From the NCBI RefSeq assembly GCF_026967935.1, contig NZ_JAPVBL010000007.1:1-64000 (forward strand): a DNA stretch of 64,000 nucleotides. The letters are read 5' to 3'. The DNA comes from Modestobacter sp. VKM Ac-2982. Lineage in GTDB: Bacteria; Actinomycetota; Actinomycetes; Mycobacteriales; Geodermatophilaceae. The notes beneath the pieces are model-generated. The model was not told the DNA's origin. It did not search any database and saw nothing but the letters and a program-made list of their open reading frames with translations. Shown here one piece after another: positions 2,598-59,211 of this stretch (positions within the stretch are counted from its first letter, which is position 1; each line of letters begins with the position of its first letter). Both the position numbers and the translations under genes were made by a program.

Positions 2598-3146
2598 TCA
2601 GCAGTCCGCTTCGACGCTCGCCGCCGCGACCAGCGCGGCAGCCACCTCTTCCTCGCTGGCCAGCCCGGCGAAGTCCGGCCCGATCACGAGGTCGACGAGG
2701 CCGGTGGAGCGGGTGTCGACGCGGTCGGTGGCGCCGGGCAGGTACAGCCGCAGGAACTCGGCGGCCTCCCGGCCCGGGCCGCCGAACCGCAGCTCGCCGA
2801 CGCCGGTCACCTCGGCGCTGCTGGGGTCGTTGGCGGTCTCGTTGACCACGAACCCGCGGCTCTCCAGGGTCGTGGTGACCTCACCGGCCAGCCCGGGGGT
2901 GTCCGTGGCGTTGTAGACCCTGATCGACACCGTGGCCGGGTCCAGCTCGGTCGGCACGTTGCTGGCGCTGCTGCAGACCGCTGCCTCGGCCTGCTCCCGG
3001 GCCCGCTCGTCGCCGAGCACGTTCCACCACACGCCCATGGCGGCCAGCGCCAGCACCAGCAGGAACACCAGGGCGGGGACAGGCCGGCGGTTGCGGCGCG
3101 GGGCGTCGGGTCCGCGCTCGGCGGTGTCGTCGGCGAGCTCGGTCAC
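2598..3146 (-). CDS. LytR C-terminal domain membrane protein (Cei-like)
   Basis: A 182-residue protein with a charged cytoplasmic N-terminus, one membrane helix at about 24-44, and an extracytoplasmic LytR_C domain at about 70-180 (begins VSIRVYNATDTPGLAG, contains the conserved ESRGF). The LytR_C domain is known from LCP cell-wall ligases but here stands alone, as in the mycobacterial envelope-integrity protein Cei (Rv2700), whose genomic neighbours are the same. A role in envelope integrity is inferred from that. GTG start at 3146 follows GAGGA by 4 nt. Confidence 0.82.
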   Translation of the reverse strand: MTELADDTAERGPDAPRRNRRPVPALVFLLVLALAAMGVWWNVLGDERAREQAEAAVCSSASNVPTELDPATVSIRVYNATDTPGLAGEVTTTLESRGFVVNETANDPSSAEVTGVGELRFGGPGREAAEFLRLYLPGATDRVDTRSTGLVDLVIGPDFAGLASEEEVAAALVAAASVEADC

Positions 3147-54457: not shown

Positions 54458-56581
54458 GTGCGTGCATCCACCGACATCCGGCCCACCCAGGGGCGGTTCC
54501 GTGTCGTCAGCGAGTTCCAGCCCTCCGGCGACCAGCCCACGGCGATCAAGGCCCTCGCCGAGCGGGTGAACGCCGGCGATCAGGACACCGTCCTGCTCGG
54601 CGCCACCGGCACCGGCAAGTCGGCCACCACGGCCTGGCTGATCGAGCAGGTCCAGCGCCCGACCCTGGTGATGGCGCCGAACAAGACCCTCGCCGCGCAG
54701 CTGGCCAACGAGTTCAAGGAGCTGATGCCCGACGCCGCCGTCGAGTACTTCGTCTCCTACTACGACTACTACCAGCCCGAGGCCTACGTCCCGCAGACCG
54801 ACACCTACATCGAGAAGGACTCCTCGGTCAACGACGAGGTCGAGCGGCTGCGGCACTCCGCGACGAACAGCCTGCTCACCCGGCGCGACGTGGTGGTCGT
54901 CTCGACGGTCTCCTGCATCTACGGCCTGGGCACGCCCGAGGAGTACGTCGAGCGGGCGCTGAAGATCAAGGTGGGGGAGGAGCGCGACCGCGACGAGCTG
55001 CTGCGCACCCTGGTCACCGAGCAGTACACCCGCAACGACCTCGCCTTCACCCGCGGCACGTTCCGGGTCCGGGGCGACACCATCGAGGTGTTCCCGGTCT
55101 ACGAGGAGCTCGCCTGCCGGATCGAGATGTTCGGCGACGAGGTCGAGCGGCTGTACTACCTGCACCCGTTGACCGGCGAGGTCATCCGCGAGGTCGACGA
55201 GCTGTTCGTCTTCCCCGCCACCCACTACGTCGCCGGACCCGAGCGCATGGAACGGGCCATCGGTGGCATCGAGGCCGAGCTCGAGCAGCGGCTGGCCGAG
55301 CTGGACAAGCAGGGCAAGCTGCTGGAGGCCCAGCGGCTGCGCATGCGCACCACCTACGACATCGAGATGATGCGACAGGTCGGGTTCTGCTCGGGCATCG
55401 AGAACTACTCACGGCACATCGACGGCCGGGCGCCCGGCAGCGCCGGCGCCTGCCTGATCGACTACTTCCCCGATGACTTCCTGCTCGTCATCGACGAGTC
55501 GCACGTGACGGTGCCGCAGATCGGCGGCATGTACGAGGGCGACATGAGCCGCAAGCGCACGCTGGTCGAGCACGGCTTCCGGTTGCCCTCGGCGATGGAC
55601 AACCGCCCGCTGCGCTGGGAGGAGTTCACCGACCGCATCAAGCAGACCGTCTACCTCTCGGCGACCCCGGGCCACTACGAGCTCGGCCGGGTCCAGGGTG
55701 ACGTGGTGGAGCAGGTGATCCGCCCGACCGGGCTGGTCGACCCGGAGGTCGTCGTCAAGCCGACCAAGGGCCAGATCGACGACCTGGTCCACGAGATCCG
55801 GCTGCGTACGGAGAAGGACGAGCGGATCCTGGTCACCACGCTGACCAAGAAGATGTCCGAGGACCTCACCGACTACCTGCTCGAGCTCGGCATCAAGGTG
55901 CGCTACCTGCACTCGGAGGTCGACACCCTGCGCCGGGTCGAGCTGCTGCGGGAGCTGCGGCAGGGCGAGTACGACGTGCTGGTCGGCATCAACCTGCTGC
56001 GGGAGGGCCTCGACCTGCCCGAGGTGTCGCTGGTGGCGATCCTCGACGCGGACAAGGAGGGCTTCCTCCGCTCGGGCACCTCGCTGATCCAGACCATCGG
56101 CCGCGCCGCGCGCAACGTCTCCGGCCAGGTGCACATGTACGCCGACAAGATCACCCCGTCGATGGCCCAGGCGATCGACGAGACCAGCCGGCGGCGCGAG
56201 AAGCAGATCGCCTACAACACCGAGCACGGCGTCGACCCGCAGCCGCTGCGCAAGAAGATCGTCGACATCCTCGACGGCATCTACAAGGCCGCCGAGGACG
56301 CCGAGGACATGACCTCGACCGAGCTGCTGGGCGGTTCGGGGCGGCAGCAGTCGCGTGGCAAGTCGCCGGTGCCGGGGCTGTCGTCGCGGAGCAAGGCGAA
56401 GGCCGGCTCGATCGACGTCCAGGGGCTGCCGCGCAACGAGCTGGCCGACATGATCACCTCGATGAACGAGCAGATGCTGGCTGCGGCCCGTGAACTGCAG
56501 TTCGAGGTGGCGGCCCGGCTGCGCGACGAGCTGACCGAGCTGAAGAAGGAGCTGCGGCAGTTCGACGCCGCGCACGCCTGA
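54458..56581 (+). CDS. uvrB: Excinuclease ABC subunit B
   Basis: UvrB is the damage-verifying helicase-like subunit of nucleotide excision repair. The 707-residue protein has Walker A GATGTGKS (48-55), the beta-hairpin region [24 protein letters not shown]-like [13 protein letters not shown], helicase motifs [20 protein letters not shown] and QTIGRAARN, and the C-terminal UVR domain ([14 protein letters not shown]) that binds UvrC. A 30-residue Ser/Gly/Lys linker precedes the UVR domain. GTG at 54458. Confidence 0.98.
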
Positions 56582-56696
56582 CCCGGGTCCGAGGTCCTCA
56601 CCGTTTCCGGGAACTCAGCGGGGCGGCCGTTCGTAGGGGACCCTGGGGCCTGGACTGCCGGGGTCGGTGCGCTGTCGCGCCGGACCGGGCAGGCCT

Positions 56697-56810
56697 CACG
56701 TGGAGGGGAGTATCCCGCCCGCGGCAGTGTCGTCAACACGGGATCCCACGGTCCCCGGCGCTGCCGGCCGACCCGCTGGCGGGTCGGTGGGAGAGACCTC
56801 CGGTGCTGAC
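56697..56810 (+). ncRNA. yybP-ykoY-type (manganese) riboswitch leader of terC
   Basis: The leader carries both conserved elements of the class in order and spacing: GGAGGGGAGTAT (from 56703) and, 80 nt on, GGGAGAGACCTCCGGTG (from 56789). GGAGG of the first pairs with CCTCC of the second to form P1, and TGTCGTCAACACGGG-type and GACCCGC/GCGGGTC stems fill the middle. The next gene is terC, a classic yybP-ykoY target. The GGAGG ribosome-binding site of terC lies about 20 nt downstream, so translational control is plausible. Confidence 0.85.
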
Positions 56811-56836
56811 AAGAGCCAGACGACCGGAGGAAATGC

Positions 56837-57961
56837 ATGGACGTCCCCCTGTGGGTGTGGGGCATCACGGTGGCTGCGATCATCGGGATGCTCGTCTTCG
56901 ACTTCTTCGGCCACGTGCGCACGCCGCACGCGCCGACCCTGAAGGAATCCGGCACCTGGTCGGCGGTCTACATCGCCATCGCCCTGCTGTTCGGCCTGGT
57001 CGTGCTCGTCTTCTGGGGCGGCACCTACGCCGGTGAGTACTTCGCCGGCTGGGTCACCGAGAAGAGCCTCTCGGTCGACAACCTGTTCGTCTTCGTGCTG
57101 ATCATGGCCAGCTTCGCGGTACCGCGTGAGCTGCAGCAGAAGGTCCTGCTGTTCGGCATCGCCTTCGCGCTCGTGCTTCGGACGATCTTCATCTTCCTCG
57201 GCGCTGCGGCCATCGAGAACTTCAGCTGGGTCTTCTACCTCTTCGGCGGCTTCCTCATCTGGACCGCGATCGCCCAGGCCCGCAGTGGCGGTCACGACGA
57301 CGAGGAGGAGTTCAAGGAGAACTCGGTCCTGCGGCTGACCCGCAAGGTGCTCCCGACGACCGAGGAGTACCACTCCGACCGGCTGGTCACGAAGATCAAG
57401 GGGAAGCGGTTCATCACCCCCCTGATGATCGCGCTGATCGCCATCGGCAGCGCCGACATCCTCTTCGCCGTCGACTCGATCCCGGCGATCTTCGGTCTCA
57501 CCCAGGAGACCTACCTGGTCTTCACCGCGAACGCGTTCGCGCTGCTGGGCCTGCGCCAGCTGTTCTTCCTCATCGACGGACTGCTCGACAAGCTCGTGTA
57601 CCTGGCCTACGGCCTGTCGGTCATCCTCGGGTTCATCGGCATCAAGCTGCTGATCCACGCCCTGCACGAGAACACGCTGCCGTTCATCAACGGCGGTGAG
57701 CACGTGACGCTGATCCCGGAGATCCCGACCTGGTTGTCGCTGCTGGTCATCCTGGTGACCCTGGTGGTGACCACCTGGGCCAGCCTGCGCAAGAACAAGA
57801 AGGACGCCCAGCGGCGGCAGGAGCGCGACGCCGCGGAGCCGGGTGCCGACTCCGCGGGGCGGCACATCGGGGCGCCGGGTGACCCGGACGCCGACACGAC
57901 CGAGACGCCGGCTGACCCCCGTGGGGTGCCGGTCAGCCGACCGGAGACGCGCACCGACTGA
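56837..57961 (+). CDS. TerC-family membrane protein, copy 1 (Mn2+ exporter-like)
   Basis: A 374-residue integral membrane protein. About nine helices; family signatures VTEKSLSVDNLFVFVLIMAS (about 73-92) and IGSADILFAVDSIPAIFGLT (about 202-221), then FTANAFALLGLRQLFFLIDG. TerC/Alx/MeeY proteins export Mn2+ or supply it to secreted enzymes. A charged C-terminal tail follows after about 310. ATG at 56837 with GGAGG 8 nt upstream; controlled by the manganese riboswitch upstream. Confidence 0.93.
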   Translation: MDVPLWVWGITVAAIIGMLVFDFFGHVRTPHAPTLKESGTWSAVYIAIALLFGLVVLVFWGGTYAGEYFAGWVTEKSLSVDNLFVFVLIMASFAVPRELQQKVLLFGIAFALVLRTIFIFLGAAAIENFSWVFYLFGGFLIWTAIAQARSGGHDDEEEFKENSVLRLTRKVLPTTEEYHSDRLVTKIKGKRFITPLMIALIAIGSADILFAVDSIPAIFGLTQETYLVFTANAFALLGLRQLFFLIDGLLDKLVYLAYGLSVILGFIGIKLLIHALHENTLPFINGGEHVTLIPEIPTWLSLLVILVTLVVTTWASLRKNKKDAQRRQERDAAEPGADSAGRHIGAPGDPDADTTETPADPRGVPVSRPETRTD

Positions 57962-57971
57962 GCAGGGGGCG

Positions 57972-58003
57972 GCCTCGGGGACGACGACCGTCGTCCCCGA
58001 GGC
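57972..58003 (+). terminator. Terminator between the two terC genes
   Basis: Perfect 14-bp stem (57972-57985 with 57990-58003), GACC loop, 10 nt after the first terC stop. Confidence 0.75.
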
Positions 58004-58100
58004 AGCTGGCGGGGAACCGCACACCATCGGCAGACGCCCGGTGGGCTCCGGCCCGCCGGGCGTCCTGCGCGCCCGCAGAGTGGTTCGTGCAACCAACTTG

Positions 58101-58106
58101 TACAGT
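58101..58106 (+). promoter_or_regulatory. -10 box (TACAGT) for leaderless terC copy 2
   Basis: TACAGT, 7 nt, GTG at 58114. The second terC is thus transcribed separately, with no room for a riboswitch. Confidence 0.6.
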
Positions 58107-58113
58107 CCCGCGC

Positions 58114-59211
58114 GTGGAGCTCCCCGTCTGGTTCGAGATCTCGACGTTCGTGGGGCTGACCGTCCTGCTGCTCGCCGACCTCGCCCTCGTCGTCCGTCGT
58201 CCGCACGAGCCCTCCGTGAAGGAGGCGACCCTGTGGGTGGTCTTCTACGTGGGCCTGGCGCTGGCCTTCGGCGGCATCGTGCTGGCGGTCACGAACGGCC
58301 AGTTCGCCACGGAGTTCTACGCCGGGTGGCTGACCGAGTACTCGCTCTCGGTCGACAACCTCTTCGTCTTCGTGATCATCATGGCCCGCTTCCGGGTGCC
58401 CCGGAAGCTCCAGCAAGAGGTCCTGATGGTCGGGATCATCATCGCGCTGGTGCTCCGCGGCCTCTTCATCCTGGCTGGAGCCGCCGTCATCGAGCGGTTC
58501 ATCTGGGTCTTCTTCCTCTTCGGCGCCTTCCTCGTCTACACCGCGATCAACCTGGTCCGGCACCGCGAGGAGGACGAGGACTACGAGGAGAACGGGCTCA
58601 TCCGCCGGATGCGCAAGGTGCTGCCGATGACCCAGGACTTCCACGACAGCAAGATCCGGGTCGTCGAGGGCGGCAAGAAGCTGTGGACGCCGATGATCGT
58701 GGTCTTCCTGGCGCTGGGCACCACCGACCTGCTCTTCGCGCTGGACAGCATCCCGGCCATCTTCGGGCTGACCCGCGAGCCGTTCATCGTCTTCACCGCG
58801 AACATCTTCGCGCTGATGGGCCTGCGCCAGCTGTACTTCCTGCTCGGCGGGCTGCTCAAGCGACTGGTCTACCTGTCGCTGGGGCTGGCCGTGATCCTCG
58901 CCTTCATCGGCGTCAAGCTGATCCTCGAGGCGCTGCACGAGAACCAGTACCCCTTCGCCGGTGAGCGCGAGCCGCTGGAGAGCATCCCGGCGATCCCGAC
59001 CTGGCTGTCCCTCACGGTGATCCTGGTGGTCCTGCTCGTCGCCACCGTGGCCAGCCTGATCAAGACCCGCGGCGAGGTGCCCGACGCCGAGGGCGCCGCG
59101 ATCGACCCGGCCGCCACCGACACCGGCGAGCCCGGTCGGGCGGATGCGCTCACCGAGGACGAGCGGCGCGCGCAGGCCGCCACGGGCGAGGACCAGCCCC
59201 GCAGGAGCTGA
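58114..59211 (+). CDS. TerC-family membrane protein, copy 2
   Basis: A 365-residue paralogue of the preceding protein: same topology, with YSLSVDNLFVFVIIMARFRV and LGTTDLLFALDSIPAIFGLT, then FTANIFALMGLRQLYFLLGG. The acidic cytoplasmic loop between helices (about 150-165, REEDEDYEENG) differs from copy 1. Probably a Mn2+ or related metal transporter with distinct regulation. The frame is open 9 codons upstream but the leaderless GTG at 58114 is preferred. Confidence 0.93.
   Translation: MELPVWFEISTFVGLTVLLLADLALVVRRPHEPSVKEATLWVVFYVGLALAFGGIVLAVTNGQFATEFYAGWLTEYSLSVDNLFVFVIIMARFRVPRKLQQEVLMVGIIIALVLRGLFILAGAAVIERFIWVFFLFGAFLVYTAINLVRHREEDEDYEENGLIRRMRKVLPMTQDFHDSKIRVVEGGKKLWTPMIVVFLALGTTDLLFALDSIPAIFGLTREPFIVFTANIFALMGLRQLYFLLGGLLKRLVYLSLGLAVILAFIGVKLILEALHENQYPFAGEREPLESIPAIPTWLSLTVILVVLLVATVASLIKTRGEVPDAEGAAIDPAATDTGEPGRADALTEDERRAQAATGEDQPRRS

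Follow-up and report, generated by a model that had tools for sequence, protein, structure and literature searches.

In Bacillus subtilis, TerC paralogues of one cell are regulated in different ways: meeY (ykoY) is under a manganese (Mn) riboswitch, and meeF belongs to the constitutive, further stress-inducible yceCDEmeeF operon (PMC10550928). This pairing of a riboswitched and a constitutive copy is the closest precedent for the locus analysed here, a tandem of two terC genes, terC1 and terC2, with a riboswitch leader before the first, in a 64,000-nucleotide stretch of the genome of Modestobacter sp. VKM Ac-2982 (family Geodermatophilaceae; contig NZ_JAPVBL010000007.1, positions 1 to 64,000), hereafter the window. 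The two systems differ in that the stress sigma factors of B. subtilis serve the copy without a riboswitch, whereas in Modestobacter a SigE-type promoter motif precedes the riboswitched copy; moreover, meeY and meeF, unlike terC1 and terC2, are not presented as neighbours in the available part of that source.

Escherichia coli alx, which responds to Mn by increased expression (PMC9603457), shares with the terC1 leader the core AGGGGAGUA, UCGUCA-UACG and GAGACCU, and its Alx/TerC protein is 39% identical to TerC1; it differs in being a single gene and in the part between aptamer and gene, which is unlike that of terC1. Corynebacterium glutamicum cg2157 is, like terC1, a terC of an actinobacterium; its predicted yybP-ykoY leader scored 49.13 bits under the RF00080 model of the time and is matched by a 5′ untranslated region in RNA sequencing data; the available text makes no mention of an adjacent second terC, a SigE-type promoter or a Mn test (PMC3890552). 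In Vibrio parahaemolyticus, mneA, which encodes a Mn exporter of the GDT1/UPF0016 family, and terC are Mn-induced behind yybP-ykoY riboswitches, the same two kinds of target as those of the Geodermatophilaceae riboswitches; these genes stand in separate loci, and a leaderless partner gene is not mentioned in the portion available (PMC13274385).

Sequence comparison establishes the riboswitch class, the alternative pairings of the leader, the promoter motifs and their conservation. Taken together, these make it probable that terC1 is a doubly gated exporter gene, requiring both stress transcription and Mn, and that terC2 serves as a baseline copy. The parts, the riboswitch class among them, are of known kinds, and it is their combination and wiring that are new. 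The genes concerned are:

56837-57961, + strand: terC1, TerC/Alx family (TIGR03718), 374 residues
58114-59211, + strand: terC2, TerC/Alx family, GTG start at 58114 (not 58087)

A yybP-ykoY class riboswitch in the terC1 leader

On comparative grounds, the terC1 leader is a riboswitch of the yybP-ykoY (Mn2+) class, with the following parts:

56698-56804, + strand: Mn2+ riboswitch aptamer, yybP-ykoY class (alx-like subtype), assigned by alignment, covariation and a match to model R1 (see below); leader region 56698-56839
56702-56706, + strand: P1.1 5′ strand GGAGG, pairs with CCUCC at 56797-56801; full pairing in 79 of 88 leaders, with compensatory changes
56707-56712, + strand: L1 segment GGAGUA, invariant in 33 of 33 aligned leaders and E. 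coli alx
56713-56716, + strand: P1.2 5′ strand UCCC, pairs with GGGA at 56789-56792; full pairing in 79 of 88 leaders
56723-56765, + strand: helices GGCAGUG/CGCUGCC and GGGAUC/GGUCCC around the conserved UCGUCAACAC segment; covariation
56768-56787, + strand: hairpin CCGACCCGC/GCGGGUCGG; covariation, with sequence and length varying among relatives
56797-56804, + strand: switching strand CCUCCGGU, proposed to pair with the P1 5′ strand (ON) or the ribosome-binding site (OFF)
56823-56830, + strand: ribosome-binding site ACCGGAGG, with 8 bp of complementarity to the switching strand in the window

Both conserved segments of the class, named L1 (GGGGAGUA, 56705-56712) and L3 (CGUCAnNACG; here CGUCAACACG, 56731-56740), are present, and GGGAGAGACCUCCGG occupies 56789-56803. 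The two hallmark segments and the pairing P1 stem described in the initial annotation of the window are real features of the leader, every base of GGAGG (56702-56706) being paired with CCUCC (56797-56801).

The relatives search kept the best 80 of 565 results, and 83 related loci were collected; exclusion of L003, which is the window's own locus truncated at the gene start, left 82 loci with GGGAGTA upstream of a terC start, and 6 leaders before other terC genes there brought the total to 88. A structure alignment of 33 Geodermatophilaceae leaders (31 base pairs) has 92.0% of its cells paired and 20 pairs changed on both sides. Its covariation score of 0.289 was reached by none of 500 shuffles, slid controls giving at most 0.092. 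P1 is invariant within these 33 leaders; across all 88 it changes in step, P1.1 appearing as GGAGG:CCUCC, GAAGG:CCUUC or GGGCG:CGUCC and P1.2 as UCCC:GGGA, UUCC:GGAA, CUCC:GGAG or CCCC:GGGG. The full pairing of P1.1 in 79 of the 88 leaders, with compensatory versions, and the failure of any shuffle to match the covariation place the structure of P1.1, P1.2 and the inner helices beyond chance.

Several database results weigh against the assignment. The Rfam model RF00080 finds nothing in the window at its gathering score of 45 bits and gives 9.6 bits at a relaxed threshold. At gathering it has no match in any of 20 sources with related loci, and at E <= 1 none in any of 8 sources, alx included; in E. 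coli, alx is missed at both settings and mntP reaches 41.6 bits against 45. The initial annotation had treated the lack of a significant RF00080 match as disproof of the riboswitch. That lack did occur, but it is not a valid disproof, because RF00080 fails on the leader of alx, a known member, as well. The gathering score is a detection threshold, not reached here, rather than a defining property of the class, and RF00080 was rejected as an identity test. The non-detection may be a matter of release, since an older Rfam model reported the C. glutamicum terC leader. Matches of the leader and of the intergenic gap to SSRC10 and other Rfam models were all far below gathering.

A family model, R1, was built from 33 of the 88 leaders, all from Geodermatophilaceae and including the window, whose own match is thus by construction; the model ends at the start codon. 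R1 matches the leader of E. coli alx at 34.5 bits (E 2.3e-5 for 83 sources) in an alignment centred on the shared core given above, which ties the terC1 leader by homology to an experimentally supported member. Against this, R1 gives no match on E. coli mntP, and its alx match stops 63 nt upstream of the annotated alx start, so that the alx expression platform (the stretch from aptamer to gene) differs from that of terC1. As neither alx nor the tested actinobacterial leaders are reported by it, surveys with the Rfam 15 RF00080 model may miss the alx/actinobacterial subtype.

Riboswitch targets

R1 has two matches in the window's own genome, the terC1 leader and the leader of a distant third terC (contig 7, G000:C7:351377-351513, L095:1178-1314), in agreement with the earlier proposal that terC1 carries a riboswitch and terC2 none. 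Matches occur in 50 of 56 family genomes and in 117 of 197 genomes of the class. The 85 family matches comprise 78 upstream of TerC genes, 6 before GDT1 and 1 before sigE, so that 84 of 85 precede typical targets, one of the 84 (G007) with a 23-codon open reading frame (ORF) in between. For the class, 90 top matches were chosen from among those listed and 89 were read, one at a contig end being dropped; within the 1.3 kb fetched, 82 have TerC and 3 have GDT1 on the same strand (85 of 89 typical) and 4 have neither. These matches reveal a widespread set of actinobacterial Mn riboswitches that the Rfam 15 model does not report in the loci tested. The targets in the family, TerC and GDT1 (which we take to be the same as UPF0016, the family of the Vibrio Mn exporter MneA), argue for Mn2+ as the probable ligand of the terC1 leader.

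Some targets have features of their own. At the GDT1 loci L089, L090, L091, L092, L093 and L094 the riboswitch is preceded by TAGGGT, TAGGCT or TAGGAT, beginning 12-16 nt before the match. The class-wide matches L158, L160, L166 and L179 have no TerC or GDT1 downstream, one lying near an ORF that looks GreA-like by eye. In G002 (L088, G002:C1:4695000-4696500; riboswitch 4696224-4696353, minus strand), R1 scores 73.3 bits directly before sigE (NF007229, 346.3 bits), where inspection by eye shows a possible pairing between AGGTCTC close to the start codon and the aptamer's GAGACCT.

Predicted switching at the ribosome-binding site

Two segments are complementary to the strand CCUCCGGU (56797-56804), namely the 5′ strand of P1 and the ribosome-binding site ACCGGAGG (56823-56830). 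In the ligand-free model fold the site is hidden (pair probability 0.96, mean unpaired 0.003); with P1 forced, at a cost of +4.0 kcal/mol, its unpaired probability rises to 0.47, that is, half open. Among the 88 leaders, 75 have a longest pairing that includes GGAG, and in 75 this pairing runs to 7-10 pairs. These results suggest that the terC1 leader is a translational ON switch, the ON direction being drawn by analogy from the increase in alx expression caused by Mn (PMC9603457). In the ligand-free leader, CCUCCGGU would mask the ribosome-binding site; binding of Mn2+ to the aptamer would draw CCUCCGGU into P1 and free the site, and TerC1 would then be translated. Two counts weigh against this mechanism: GGAG lies outside the longest pairing in 13 of 88 leaders, and shuffled regions give a pairing of at least 7 in 191 of 1760 trials (the shuffles for pairing, TANNNT, gap folding and SigE motif preserve base composition only).

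Transcription termination, by Rho or intrinsic, or mRNA decay could act in place of site exposure. Riboswitches of this class usually act in one of two modes, termination being one of them (PMC13274385), and the mode of switching is not readable from sequence alone. However, complementarity between switching strand and ribosome-binding site recurs in 75 of 88 leaders, and a scan of the + strand between aptamer and terC1 finds no T-tailed terminator, which makes this alternative unlikely. Exposure of the ribosome-binding site is thus preferred, and it offers a testable translational switch for high-GC bacteria.

A putative SigE-type promoter upstream of the riboswitch

A sigma-70 promoter for terC1 was sought and rejected: the + strand upstream gave none in the scan, and the 110 nt ahead of the aptamer contain no TANNNT. 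As a result of this failed search a motif of another type was looked into:

56609-56635, + strand: extracytoplasmic function (ECF)/SigE-type promoter of terC1, -35 GGGAACT (56609-56615), N16, -10 CGTA (56632-56635)

The mycobacterial SigE consensus is GGGAACY-N16-17-CGTT (PMC8022548). The relaxed form GGAACN-N16/17-CGT(T/A/C) lies within 160 nt upstream of 39 of 45 family terC1-type leaders, against 0.23% in shuffles, and in the same interval before 0 of 5 riboswitched terC2, 0 of 1 terC3 and 0 of 37 other-family leaders. TANNNT is found instead at the 6 family terC1-type exceptions, the 5 riboswitched terC2 leaders and 34 of the 37 other-family leaders. Of the 53 SigE-like occurrences in 44 family loci, 40 have a riboswitch at most 160 nt downstream; the other 13 lie elsewhere, in 588,100 strand-bases. 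In the whole of the window's own genome, GGGAACY-N16-CGTW occurs four times, once at terC1 (reversed-pattern control, 1). The other three sites lie 8-61 nt before possible starts, one protein being zinc-ribbon-like and one Bax-inhibitor-like by eye. The genome also encodes SigE (342.3 bits against a cut-off of 265), which is the probable sigma factor for terC1.

This reading has points against it. The window's motif, GGGAACT-N16-CGTA, is one letter off the consensus (-10 CGTA for CGTT), and strict GGGAACY-N15-17-CGTT is found in only 24 of 45 family leaders; the riboswitched third terC (G000:C7:351377-351513) has no promoter of either the SigE or the TANNNT type within the scanned stretch, and the genome holds further sigma-factor-like genes. 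Recognition by another ECF sigma factor, of SigH/SigR-like kind, is accordingly a possibility of some weight, if the less probable one: the sigmaH, sigmaM and sigmaE/H promoters of C. glutamicum have GGAA and GTT cores in common (PMC5483222), and the SigE model has 15 matches in the genome, one of them above cut-off. The motif nevertheless agrees best with the SigE consensus (PMC8022548), and one family genome (G002) carries a riboswitch of the same kind on sigE itself; SigE remains the preferred factor.

The presumed terC2 promoter and the intergenic hairpins

The gap between the two genes measures 152 bp, as the earlier figure of about 150 bp had it, and contains:

57969-58006, + strand: hairpin 1, 18-nt arms, putative terminator, near-perfect (94%), just past the terC1 stop, no U-run
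58033-58064, + strand: hairpin 2, 14-nt arms, near-perfect (93%), no U-run
58101-58106, + strand: -10 element TACAGT of a presumed leaderless terC2 promoter, 7 nt before GTG 58114

The longest listed ORF of terC2 begins at 58087; GTG 58114, which aligns with the terC1 start and with the starts of relatives, is preferred for that reason. As this GTG begins 7 nt after TACAGT, the terC2 mRNA is probably leaderless, like 33% of C. glutamicum mRNAs (PMC3890552) and 38-40% of primary starts in Mycobacterium marinum (PMC8022548). At named loci, 25 of the 26 family terC2 genes that lack a riboswitch of their own have TANNNT 7-8 nt ahead of the GTG start (shuffle chance 0.5%); the element stands at that spacing in 0 of 5 riboswitched terC2 and 0 of 20 other-family terC2, these 20 starts being examined from among those found. 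Constitutive expression of terC2 is plausible on this basis. A repressor bound to the inverted repeat TGGTTcgtgcAACCA (58081-58095) would give a different picture: the repeat is directly upstream of the -10 element, and L006 retains a shifted version, GTTGG...CCAAC. Its left arm, however, varies in the nearest relatives L004, L005 and L007, and repressor control appears quite improbable.

The initial annotation had placed the leaderless terC2 promoter after a terminator. Its promoter stands, at leaderless spacing; the status of the terminator is less secure, owing to the missing U-run. A stable hairpin does follow terC1, as expected for an intrinsic terminator, and the 75 nt after terC1 fold with z <= -3 in 18 of 25 gaps, from 25 of the 26 unswitched loci (L023 and 5 riboswitched loci were left out). 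Against termination, a scan of the gap found no site with a U-run, UUUU occurs in 0 of 25 family gaps, and 7 of 25 miss z <= -3, namely the long gaps L028, L029, L032 and L040 together with L007, L015 and L039. The gap hairpins are nonetheless likely to be terminators of a kind without U-run.

Alternatively, terC1 and terC2 may be co-transcribed, the hairpins acting as processing or stability elements and the promoter of the riboswitched gene driving most of terC2 as well. The absence of U-runs fits this, as does the spacing in other families: at 17 of the 20 loci inspected there, the start of terC2 follows terC1 by 1-12 bases, a layout that points to an operon under one riboswitch. On the other side, a promoter-like element at leaderless spacing precedes 25 of 26 unswitched family terC2 genes, and 5 family terC2 genes at named loci have their own riboswitch and upstream TANNNT, which would be odd if they were fed by read-through. 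Co-transcription is regarded as unlikely, and separate transcription of terC2 is preferred.

The two TerC proteins

TerC1 and TerC2 are 50% identical. The Pfam TerC profile scores them at 170.2 and 166.3 bits, respectively, and both exceed the curated cut-off of 246.4 bits for NCBIfam TIGR03718 (377.3 bits for terC1, 380.1 for terC2). Invariant acidic positions are common to TerC1, TerC2, the third TerC of the same genome and E. coli Alx in one alignment. The earlier suggestion that the pair might export different metals was rejected: both proteins belong to the same subfamily with the same invariant acidic positions, and one alignment shows no difference in its favour. Both would be predicted to export Mn. 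The gene order is uvrB (54458-56581), terC1, terC2 and a gene of the major facilitator superfamily.

Tandem pairs and their history in the family

The sample of TerC genes comprised the 115 strongest matches in the 56 family genomes, 30 of 145 rows below about 151 bits being dropped. It contains 33 same-strand close terC pairs, and the first gene is riboswitched in all 33. A riboswitch lies directly before the second gene in 7 of 33, in one of which (G047) a third terC on the opposite strand lies between the pair; in 25 of 33 none was detected before the second gene, by a search with filters that may miss weak matches. In G007 (= L040:4107-4261, L198), the riboswitch between the pair leads into the 23-codon ORF, perhaps a vestige of a terC that was lost; terC2 has a separate leaderless-type promoter.

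Further arrangements are seen among relatives. A riboswitched terC on the opposite strand adjoins the tandem in L023 (1855-1995, minus strand), G043:C18 and G047:C138, the last between the pair. L008 has two terC1-type genes in tandem, both riboswitched (1464-1613, 2856-3003), with a SigE-type promoter on the upstream copy only.

In a tree of 121 proteins, all 50 terC2 rows form one clade (support 99), which argues that the terC1/terC2 pair is old. The starred branches of this tree, which was built quickly and has a long outgroup branch, force at least three changes for the riboswitched state of terC2, and the label is weakly clustered (19 of 500 shuffles as low).

Discussion

In the proposed scheme, a SigE-type ECF sigma factor would transcribe terC1 from 56609-56635 under stress, transcription would mostly end at the downstream hairpins, and terC2, an old paralogue, would supply an independent, steady leaderless mRNA from a sigmaA-type promoter. 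Of the initial annotation, the Mn-class riboswitch on terC1 only and the leaderless-spaced terC2 promoter are retained and the different metals are not; the SigE-type promoter, the pairing that hides the ribosome-binding site and the other arrangements in relatives had been missed.

Extended to the family, the comparisons raise the possibility, which we hold tentatively and at slightly less than even confidence, that the SigE response to envelope stress incorporates the Mn riboswitch as an AND gate on terC1, whose protein would appear only at high Mn, with a leaderless terC2 as baseline, that sigE itself is Mn-riboswitched in one lineage, and that terC2 has changed at least three times between the leaderless and the riboswitched state. 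In the open literature, covered in part, neither an ECF promoter followed by a Mn riboswitch nor a Mn riboswitch ahead of sigE was found, which is not proof of absence.

Geodermatophilaceae are known for desert life and radiation tolerance, and manganese is thought to protect proteins. On the present reading, such organisms would couple the sensing of manganese to a stress sigma factor of the ECF group, and in the lineage whose sigE carries a riboswitch that factor would itself be adjusted by manganese. The tandem offers a natural comparison between a probably doubly gated exporter and its presumably leaderless paralogue, with some relatives in which the second copy is riboswitched as well.

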